Source of the DNA: an uncultured Bacteroidota bacterium | GTDB lineage: Bacteria; Bacteroidota; Bacteroidia; 2-12-FULL-35-15 | Direction of reading: 5' to 3' | DNA: 64,000 nt | Assembly: GCA_903926385.1 (NCBI GenBank) | Contig: CAIYIS010000081.1 | Location: 62,001 to 126,000 of the forward strand | Program-made: the position numbers and the translations under genes | Part shown: one piece after another, positions 11,709 to 46,812 of the stretch | Position numbering within the stretch: the stretch's first letter is position 1 | How the letters are laid out: each line of letters begins with the position of its first letter | Notes under the pieces: generated by a model | Database searches by the model: none | Told to the model about the DNA's origin: nothing | The model's input: the letters and a program-made list of their open reading frames with translations, nothing else

Positions 11709-11851
11709 GGCGCAAAAGTAATAAAATGTGAATTGGAAATGCAATCTTGCTTACTACCAAAAAAACGTAAACCAACCAACCAAATAAATGAATAGTTAAA
11801 AACTCGGGCAATGGTTTTTGACAAAAAAAGTAGTTAAACAGCAAAAAATGC

Positions 11852-12103
11852 AAATGGTTTATTGCAAAACCTAAATGGTTTCAGTTGCGGACCAAATGGT
11901 TTTTAGTAAAACCTAAATGGTTTTGATGCGTTCCTAAATAGTTTCGGTTGCAAACCAAATAGGATTTCGAAAAAACTAAATGGTTTCTGATAGAAACCAA
12001 ATGGTTTCGGTTGAGGACCAAATAGGATTTTGTAAAACCTAAATGGTTTTGATGCGTTCCTAAATAGTTTTGGTTGCAAACCAAATAGGATTTCGAAAAA
12101 ACC
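11852..12103. repeat. Tandem array A: 12 units of exactly 21 bp
   Basis: Units begin AAATGG or AAATAG at 11852, 11873, 11894, 11915, 11936, 11957, 11978, 11999, 12020, 12041, 12062 and 12083, all exactly 21 bp apart. Many units contain GGTTT and AAACC as an inverted pair, for example GGTTTC/GAAACC in unit 7 and GGTTTT/AAAACC in unit 3. Units from 11873 on are duplicated at 11999 on, forming a 126-bp (six-unit) higher-order repeat; units 11915 and 12041 are identical. The minus strand stays open and would encode heptapeptide repeats such as NHLVxxx, which I regard as a consequence of the period. Confidence 0.95.
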
Positions 12104-35701: not shown

Positions 35702-35770
35702 AGTTTCAGGTTTCAGGTTGGTGTTTAGTATGAATTTTGTTGATGGTGGCAAGACATTACCTGTGAACGA

Positions 35771-35952
35771 CTGTCAGCAACCCGCTGACGGCTGTCGGCA
35801 AACCGCTGATGACTGTCGGCAACCCGCTGACGGCTGTCGGCAACTTGCTGACGACTGTCGGCAACCTGCTGATGACTGTCGGCAACCTGCTGACGACTGT
35901 CGGCAACTTTCGGATGACTGTCGGCAACCCGCTGACGACTGTCAGCAACTTG
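35771..35952. repeat. Tandem array B: 9 units of exactly 21 bp
   Basis: Units start with CTGTCRGCAA at 35771, 35792, 35813, 35834, 35855, 35876, 35897, 35918 and 35939, the last one partial. The consensus is CTGTCGGCAACCYGCTGAYG plus one base. Between neighbouring units GCTGAC and GTCGGC/GTCAGC form a 6-bp inverted repeat with a 4-nt centre; the last is perfect. It is GC-richer than its surroundings. Both strands are open and would encode heptapeptide repeats (DDCRQPA on plus), probably a consequence of the 21-bp period. Confidence 0.95.
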
Positions 35953-37091: not shown

Positions 37092-37104
37092 TCTATATTG
37101 ATTA

Positions 37105-37171
37105 GATTTGAGTAGTGAGTATTGAGAAGTGAGAAACGGTTTCTCAATACTCAATACTCAAATCTCAATAC
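37105..37171. repeat. Inverted heptamer array in atpA-atpG spacer
   Basis: On the plus strand four heptamers (GATTTGA, GTAGTGA, GTATTGA, GAAGTGA) are followed by the palindromic centre GAAACGGTTTC and four complementary heptamers (TCAATAC, TCAATAC, TCAAATC, TCAATAC). It fills the spacer and ends exactly at the atpA stop codon. In the transcript it would fold into a long hairpin of about 30 bp with some mismatches. Confidence 0.9.
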
Positions 37172-38880: not shown

Positions 38881-39438
38881 TTAAAACTCTTTTATAAACG
38901 GATTCTCATTAAAGCTTCTCTTCAGGCTGTTCAATTTGCGGGCAATACTTGCATCCACTTGTTTGTCGCCTACACGAATGATAAAACCTCCGATAATATC
39001 TTTATCCACTACTTCTTTTAATACCACAGCGCTATCTGTAACCCCTTTCACTATTTCCATAACTTGTTTACGGATACTGTCGTCAATTCCGCTTGCAGTA
39101 GTTACTACAGCTGTAAGTATTTTGTTTTTTGTTTTATATTGCTCAATAAATTCATGTGCAATTTCGGCAAGATAAATTTCTCTTCTTTTAGCAGTGATTA
39201 AATGAATATAAGAATCAGTTACTTTAGAAAGTTTTCCATTGAATATTTCTTTCAACACAATTTGTTTCTTATCCGTTTTGATAACAGGGCTTTTTAAGAA
39301 AATAACAAATTCGTGTGTGGATGCGCAAACATCAGCGATGTATTTCATATCAATGTATGCCTGCTCCAACGAACCTTGCTCTATTGCTAGGTCGATAAAT
39401 GATTTCGCATATCGTGCTGCTACTCTTGTTCCTTCCAT
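38881..39438 (-). CDS. atpH: ATP synthase delta subunit
   Basis: The delta subunit (OSCP) joins the peripheral stalk to F1. The 185-residue product begins EGTRVAARYAKSFIDLAIEQG and ends with the conserved DKDIIGGFIIRVGDKQVDASIARKL-type segment. It follows atpF, with an inverted heptamer array in the 74-bp spacer. Confidence 0.95.
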   Translation of the reverse strand: MEGTRVAARYAKSFIDLAIEQGSLEQAYIDMKYIADVCASTHEFVIFLKSPVIKTDKKQIVLKEIFNGKLSKVTDSYIHLITAKRREIYLAEIAHEFIEQYKTKNKILTAVVTTASGIDDSIRKQVMEIVKGVTDSAVVLKEVVDKDIIGGFIIRVGDKQVDASIARKLNSLKRSFNENPFIKEF

Positions 39439-39448
39439 TTTTTGTTTG

Positions 39449-39513
39449 GTTGTTAGTTGTTAGTTGTTAGTTGTTGGTGCTGGACTAACAACTAACAACT
39501 AATAACCATCAAC
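39449..39513. repeat. Inverted heptamer array in atpF-atpH spacer
   Basis: On the plus strand three GTTGTTA and one GTTGTTG are followed by a 9-nt centre (GTGCTGGAC) and four complementary heptamers (TAACAAC twice, TAATAAC, CATCAAC). It reaches the first base of the atpF stop codon. Layout is the same as in the atpA-atpG spacer but the sequence is unrelated. Confidence 0.9.
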
Positions 39514-40007
39514 TAATTTAAGTTAACGTCTTTTAATAAAGTATTCACTAAAGCTTTTTGTTTTTCGTCCGAAGCGAGTTCAGCTTTCAAAACTTTTTCA
39601 GCAATTTCTAAAGATAAAACACCTACCTGATTTTTCAATTCAGTAATAGCTGCCATTTTTTCGTTTTGAATATTTTCGCGAGCCGATTTAAGCATACGCT
39701 CACCTTCTTTAGCAGCTATACCTTTTGCCTCAGCAATCATTTTCTCTCTTATTTCGCGAGCATCTTTAAGTAATTGGTCGCGTTCGTGACGAGCATCTGC
39801 CAATATTTTTTCGTTACCAGCTTGTAAAGCTTTCATTTCTTCTTTTGCACGTTCAGCAGAATCTAATGCTTCCTGAATGGAAGTTTCTCTGTCGTTTAAC
39901 ATTTTCAGGATTGGTTTCCAGGCGAATTTACCCAGAATGTACAATATAATCCCGAAGGAAATACACATCCAAAATATAAGACCAAATGCGGGTTTAACTA
40001 ATTCCAT
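39513..40007 (-). CDS. atpF: ATP synthase b subunit
   Basis: The b subunit is the membrane-anchored peripheral stalk. The 164-residue product has one N-terminal transmembrane helix (PAFGLIFWMCISFGIILYILG) and a long charged helix (about 30-150, with ERAKEEMKALQAGNEKIL). It follows atpE by 104 nt. Confidence 0.95.
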   Translation of the reverse strand: MELVKPAFGLIFWMCISFGIILYILGKFAWKPILKMLNDRETSIQEALDSAERAKEEMKALQAGNEKILADARHERDQLLKDAREIREKMIAEAKGIAAKEGERMLKSARENIQNEKMAAITELKNQVGVLSLEIAEKVLKAELASDEKQKALVNTLLKDVNLN

Positions 40008-40111
40008 TATTATTAAAAATTATAAATTATAGATTATGAAATATAAATGTTTTTGTTTTAAAAAATCTGTACTGCAACCAACCGTTGCAGTACAGAAAAT
40101 TTGTTTGCGGA

Positions 40112-46659: not shown

Positions 46660-46694
46660 TTTATCTATTATTAATATTTTAAAATATGCCGGAT

Positions 46695-46812
46695 AGGTTT
46701 TAAACCTTGCGCTCTAGGTTTTAAACCTCGCGGTCTAGGTTTTAAACCTCATGCTCTAGGTTTTAAACCTCGCGGTCTAGGTTTTAAATCTCAAAGTATA
46801 AGTTTAAAACCT
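46695..46812. repeat. Tandem array C: 6 units of exactly 21 bp
   Basis: The core AGGTTTTAAACCT, palindromic around one central T, begins at 46695, 46716, 46737, 46758, 46779 and 46800 (last copies degenerate), always 21 bp apart. The 8 nt between cores vary: TGCGCTCT, CGCGGTCT, CATGCTCT, CGCGGTCT. It lies between the HTH gene and the terminator of the next gene upstream. Confidence 0.95.

Follow-up and report, generated by a model that had tools for sequence, protein, structure and literature searches.

Inverted heptamer arrays fill the same core-operon spacers with changing units in a genus of Bacteroidota

The spacer between atpF and atpH in this uncultured Bacteroidota bacterium is filled by a stem-loop made of two opposed arrays of ~7-nt units, and elements of this kind recur in the genus at the atpF-atpH, atpA-atpG and rpoA-rplQ junctions. 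The same kind of element occupies some of those junctions in other families of the class. Position, periodicity, inversion and layout are conserved, and the units themselves are exchanged wholesale among close relatives. From this combination we infer an array-making process and a role in translation; at certain junctions the stem-loop architecture alone would be retained, probably because it keeps the stop codon of one gene and the start codon of the next effectively close.

The atpF-atpH array and its genomic setting

The atp genes lie on the minus strand of the window, the whole 64,000-nt stretch of DNA that was analysed. The initial annotation had placed four heptamers and, past a 9-nt centre, four inverted ones between atpF and atpH; direct reading and a tally of units show exactly this arrangement, correct to the base, with five perfect units, two with one mismatch and one with two. 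As also described, the array reaches the stop codon, sharing one base with the atpF stop (CTA on the plus strand, read as TAG), and the hairpin of the same layout with a different heptamer at atpA-atpG is real. The features are:

37092..37171, minus strand: inverted heptamer hairpin that fills the atpA-atpG spacer, with TGAGTAT-type units and a 9-nt centre (fold z -8.1)
39436..39448, minus strand: start codon of atpH (39436-39438) and, between it and the stem, an A-rich leader of 10 nt that is mostly unpaired (reading, fold)
39449..39476, plus strand: direct heptamer array, three GTTGTTA and then GTTGTTG (reading, tally; TRF period 7, 100% match), which in the atp transcript is the C-bearing, start-proximal 3' arm of the stem
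39477..39485, no strand: 9-nt centre GTGCTGGAC, the hairpin loop (reading; unpaired in the predicted fold)
39486..39513, minus strand: inverted array, on the plus strand TAACAAC twice, TAATAAC and CATCAAC (reading, fold), forming the G-bearing 5' arm in the transcript and beginning inside the atpF stop codon
39513..39515, minus strand: atpF stop codon TAG, its last base being the first base of the array (ORF 39513-40007)
40012..40037, minus strand: lone array of AATTATA-type heptamers immediately before atpF in the atpE-atpF spacer, with no well-matched inverted partner

The periodicity is far beyond chance. All 20 of 20 lag-7 comparisons match in the direct arm (27 bp), whereas Markov shuffling of the surrounding 6 kb (300 rounds, 1.79 million windows) never gave more than 16/20. 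The predicted RNA fold of the spacer has an energy of -30.8 kcal/mol (z -8.5), which none of 200 shuffles equalled. When the search pattern was strict, two perfect units followed after 3-33 nt by two perfect inverted ones, the genome of the window gave 39449-39513 as its single hit, and 394 others sampled across the phylum gave no hit. At the gathering score no Rfam family was found; the atpF-atpH array gave only sub-threshold matches to microRNA hairpins and seven related loci gave none. The intrinsic terminator, with its G+C-rich stem and U run, does not fit, the stem being followed by AACCAAACAAAAAAUG, which has no U run.

Elsewhere in this genome, heptamer periodicity is widespread. In a sample of 455 kb (the window and L027-L046, about 11% of 4.27 Mb), partly picked at sites with GTTGTTA arrays, 35 arrays of period 7 were counted against 0-5 at most other periods, with 14 and 21 also high. 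The autocorrelation of intergenic sequence has maxima at lags 7, 14 and 21, and coding sequence has no lag-7 peak. Both marks of heptameric SSRs, tandem 7-nt units in intergenic DNA and over-representation of period 7, are present, and the units belong to a limited set of types. The ribosomal-protein operon also has clear hairpins of inverted heptamers, in its rpoA-rplQ, rpsM-rpsK and rpsQ-rplN spacers. Two convergent spacers hold them as well (L039:12952-13043 and L027:3276-3469), with no start codon involved. The initial annotation had said that its reading would be refuted if the two atp spacers were the sole cases in the genome, and they are not. The first threshold gave no significant restriction of inverted arrays to short spacers in this genome (p 0.72); p 0.026 was reached only at a threshold picked post hoc.

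Two other kinds of repeat were seen in the window. Tandem repeats of ~21 bp (3 x 7) lie at 46694-46812, where they have a palindromic GGTTTTAAACC core, at 11851-12102 and at 35767-35949; the genome sample shows a strong excess of period 21. After atpE, at 40067-40095, a hairpin CTGTACTGCAACCAACCGTTGCAGTACAG is followed by a T run (atp sense). Its loop sequence is conserved in much of the genus and its stem varies, unlike the heptamer hairpins, and it is likely to be an attenuator after the c-subunit gene.

Orthologous spacers in related genomes

The atpF-atpH spacer was compared in 29 congeneric genomes, that of the window and 28 related ones (L047-L074), out of a genus set of 36. About 22 of the 29 orthologous spacers contain an inverted array. 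Judged by their letters, the units are of at least five unrelated sequences, TTGTTAG, TGAGATA, AAAGTTC, ATTGGTC and AGTATTA, the types having been assigned by eye. Of the remaining spacers, five lack a clear array and two carry a palindrome of an unrelated CCTCCC type. Loss of the inverted symmetry in relatives, which would have spoken against the initial annotation, is not what is seen; the symmetry is kept with other heptamers. The "four plus four" form, exact in the window, does not hold across genomes, since unit numbers differ and octamers are also seen. The stop codon of atpF is TAG in 19 of the 22 array-bearing genomes versus one of the seven without an array (p 0.001), a bias that arises because the stop codon belongs to the first unit.

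Exchange of the units is best seen in close pairs. L055 and L057 share 98% identity in atpF and 99% in atpH, and their other spacers are 90-100% identical (atpE-atpF 100%, atpH-atpA 90%), yet their atpF-atpH units are unrelated. The units at this junction are also unrelated in L050 and L051 (atpF 98%, atpH 97%), which differ in addition in array type at atpB-atpE and in array presence at atpH-atpA. On a tree of the atp genes the heptamer types need 10 changes, compared with 11.2 ± 1.1 for shuffled labels, of which 122 of 500 were as low; at that depth, then, unit type shows no significant inheritance. The array-less allele can be very short (1 nt in L053). Outside the genus, none of 50 genomes has a heptamer hairpin at atpF-atpH, where the median spacer is 7 nt; a genome search at the level of the order returned the same genus only.

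In the L050 spacer (locus positions 1542-1627) the same four unit variants make up both arms, but their order is circularly permuted, ABCD versus CDAB, which suggests out-of-register copying. A different palindromic family CCCTCTCC...GGAGAGGG is found at atpF-atpH of L061, L069 and L089 and also in the genome of the window, at L042:19450-19700 and L044:5468-5688.

The rpoA-rplQ junction repeats the pattern. Within the genus, 25 of 28 genomes have a period-7 or period-8 hairpin there, of several unit types, and one has an empty allele of 7 nt (L180). The closest pair, L188 and L191 (rpoA 97%), share a type and differ at the level of single units; in the next-closest pairs, at 93%, the types differ. 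In other families of the class the hairpin is present in seven of 27 genomes, which are exactly the seven with spacers longer than 60 nt (0/20 among the shorter), a division drawn after the data were seen. The units outside the genus include TGAGATN, CAGTTAT (near TAACTGA), AAATGTT and GGTCGGC. The last is the unit type of a G+C-rich relative (L243) with the same inverted heptamer layout, and the architecture in this case tracks genome base composition. At atpA-atpG, period-7/8 hairpins occur in at least six genomes outside the genus.

Not all junctions are occupied in this way. Periodic hairpins were found at atpF-atpH in 20/29 genomes, at atpA-atpG in 15/22 and at rpoA-rplQ in 25/28, as against 4/27 at atpH-atpA, 3/27 at atpB-atpE, 3/28 at rpsD-rpoA and 8/29 at rpsK-rpsD, where spacer lengths are similar. 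Fisher's test gives p 5e-5 for atpF-atpH versus atpH-atpA and p 3e-9 for rpoA-rplQ versus rpsD-rpoA, values that are optimistic because the genomes are related.

Placement of the stems and possible explanations

The initial annotation had called for a check of position relative to stop codons, and in tandem spacers the placement is precise: the 5' base of the stem lies -6 to +8 nt from the stop codon in 38 of 43 cases, and from the 3' base to the next start there are mostly 6-20 nt. The unpaired nucleotides left outside the stem between stop and start have medians of 10.5, 9 and 17 at the three junctions. Stems are roughly 16-44 bp long, commonly 22-32 bp, and the G-bearing arm comes first in 36 of 42 tandem cases. 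Three inverted arrays found in other genus members by pattern alone also lie between the stop and start of tandem genes. Some short tandem spacers hold a lone array (L031:16977-17025), so that the inverted copy is not obligatory. Among mismatches in the stems, G-U is not above A-C (70 versus 61, p 0.48), so that the spectrum does not directly point to selection for pairing in RNA as opposed to DNA. When arms were swapped, the own partner was uniquely best in 18 of 45 cases; arms match by unit type, not unit by unit. A fold-back origin of each hairpin was rejected, as the swap did not show its own arms to be better matched than arms of the same type elsewhere, although single hairpins do fit fold-back, such as that of L048, which is mirrored save for one unit.

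The account that we prefer, tentatively and with somewhat less than even confidence, has two steps, in which arrays are made and replaced and the form that folds is kept, preserving effective spacing. In the first, a mutational process would make arrays and replace them within a few percent divergence, by heptamer-array expansion combined with either template switching or fold-back copying; arrays at other loci of the genome may have served as seeds. In the second, where two genes have to remain near each other in the transcript, an array that possesses an inverted copy would survive best, because its stem would remove the ~75-nt insert from the path of the ribosome. The stem base would join the stop codon to a point ~10 nt ahead of the next start, so that effective spacing would be near 10-17 nt and the A-rich initiation region single-stranded; since any complementary unit would suffice, the words could change and the shape stay. 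This account is favoured by the conserved geometry, in which the stem removes 60-80 nt between stop and start and leaves a median of 9-17 nt unpaired, and by the alternative alleles at the same junctions, which are of 1-7 nt and not random 75-nt spacers. Its most likely consequence, so far as sequence can indicate, would be that the stem preserves or tunes translational coupling of the neighbouring subunit genes. Initiation in Bacteroidota depends on A-rich sequence that is free of structure ahead of the start codon (PMC6847099), and the stems leave that region free. Intercistronic structure is an established mechanism of coupling (PMC12548453); one library study, as cited there, reported that structure just past the stop lowers coupling.

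The heptamers might instead be neutral or selfish, with slippage producing the arrays, template switching the inverted copies, and functionless hairpins being kept wherever they do little harm. The abundance of longer-unit repeats is often put down to a general tendency to expand. The genome-wide frequency of intergenic heptamer arrays, the absence of a G-U excess and arms for which the own partner is no better a match than another arm of the same type are all as this explanation would have it; we nevertheless consider it somewhat unlikely, given the strong site specificity that persists genus-wide despite turnover, the bimodal spacer lengths at rpoA-rplQ and the precise setting of stems between stop codon and initiation region. 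A candidate mRNA processing or stability element, comparable with intercistronic REP/BIME hairpins, would be cut by RNase III or would halt 3'-5' exonucleases, so separating or protecting the cistrons. Long stems in transcribed intercistronic spacers, after stop codons in core operons, are suited to such a role, and the tolerance of these enzymes for any sequence would explain the free exchange of units. Selection at the RNA level should, however, have left the G-U excess that is not found, and the occurrence of very short empty alleles at these junctions points to a processing site being dispensable there, which makes processing improbable as the explanation.

Homologous recombination through the conserved flanking genes could import arrays from related lineages and switch units with no special maker. 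It is clear in L049 and L052, whose atpF genes are 83% identical and whose downstream spacers are 99-100% identical, and between L050 and L051 the final 10 nt of atpF contain a cluster of three differing bases, where L052 has the L051 variant. In L055 and L057, however, atpH shows no difference until 51 nt into the gene, and there are few others to either side of the spacer, so that a recombined tract would be nearly confined to the spacer; as recombination also leaves the origin of the many unit types unexplained, we doubt that it accounts for the switches. The small set of recurring unit types leaves room for copying of array segments between loci. Transposase-driven copying of a REP/RAYT-like or MITE-like mobile element is disfavoured and very improbable. 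The position after stop codons is one that REPs often have, and Y1-transposase homologues are present in 29 of the 36 genus genomes (in that of the window as weak matches). But the elements have no common sequence, and a whole-genome search found no second full-length copy of the 77-nt atpF-atpH element, only half-array matches; copying of one element was rejected on this ground, and there is no family of similar dispersed full-length palindromes of the REP/RAYT kind. G016 and G033, a sister pair that switched at atpF-atpH and in whose draft genomes no Y1 homologue was detected, likewise speak against RAYT-driven mobility. With the further cases and the different heptamers of relatives, these results uphold the initial annotation in its view that a process makes or selects 7-nt inverted arrays, as opposed to the copying of one mobile element. 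That a dedicated process writes and periodically rewrites inverted ~7-nt arrays of arbitrary sequence at chosen Bacteroidota junctions seems to us quite unlikely; if it were true, a functional stem-loop would be inherited as architecture and not as sequence.

Relation to known heptamer systems

The STRR of cyanobacteria (e.g. Calothrix) are likewise tandem heptanucleotides of several sequences, but are known as direct arrays; we know of no report of a fixed inverted, spacer-filling architecture among them. REP/BIME elements share with the present ones the form of short palindromes after stop codons within operons, giving RNA hairpins, and differ in being a conserved sequence family tied to RAYT transposases and not built from 7-nt units. 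TAACTGA heptamers have been described in Beggiatoaceae, cyanobacteria and five Bacteroidetes (MacGregor 2015, PMC4679880). These too are intergenic, some lying upstream of starts, some in ribosomal-protein operons and some in Bacteroidota, whereas they are direct repeats (with one inverted case in that genome) of a single unit, proposed as translation initiation sites (PMC4679880). The unit here is GTTGTTA/TAACAAC and not TAACTGA, although units closely related to TAACTGA occur at locus L241. Lone G-free arrays without an inverted partner (AACAACT-like, sense), right upstream of starts at L031:16977-17025 and in atpH-atpA of L048, L049, L052 and L056, are placed like the TAACTGA repeats of Beggiatoaceae.

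Neither inverted arrays that fill spacers in Bacteroidota nor exchange of whole units at orthologous sites turned up in a search of mainly open-access literature. The initial annotation, which named no inverted four-plus-four form for Bacteroidota, needs correcting in that inverted heptamer pairs as such have a precedent in Xanthomonas (PMC4692102). Elements of this kind are missed by searches for sequence conservation, because only shape and position are conserved. Both the maker of period-7 arrays and their inverted copies, and any effect of the stems on expression of ATP-synthase and ribosomal-protein genes, can now be tested.

Heptamer repeats are a known but little studied class, their over-representation in bacteria having been noted since 2007 without detailed study (PMC4692102), and inverted pairs are already known in Xanthomonas, where GGGAATC repeats form about 70 per genome (Rehm et al. 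2015, PMC4692102). As here, those arrays are intergenic, near the upstream stop codon and mostly between co-directional genes (PMC4692102), and in the inverted pairs, as in our hairpins, two arrays of one unit lie close together in convergent orientation. The Xanthomonas repeats have one G-rich, quadruplex-capable unit type that is mostly conserved between species (PMC4692102), whereas the units here are not of the GGGANTN form and contain no GGG run. Nor are the Xanthomonas repeats described as swapping units at one site or as filling core-operon spacers (PMC4692102). In the orthologous core-operon spacers examined here, close genomes are directly comparable, and the layout outlives complete replacement of the sequence.
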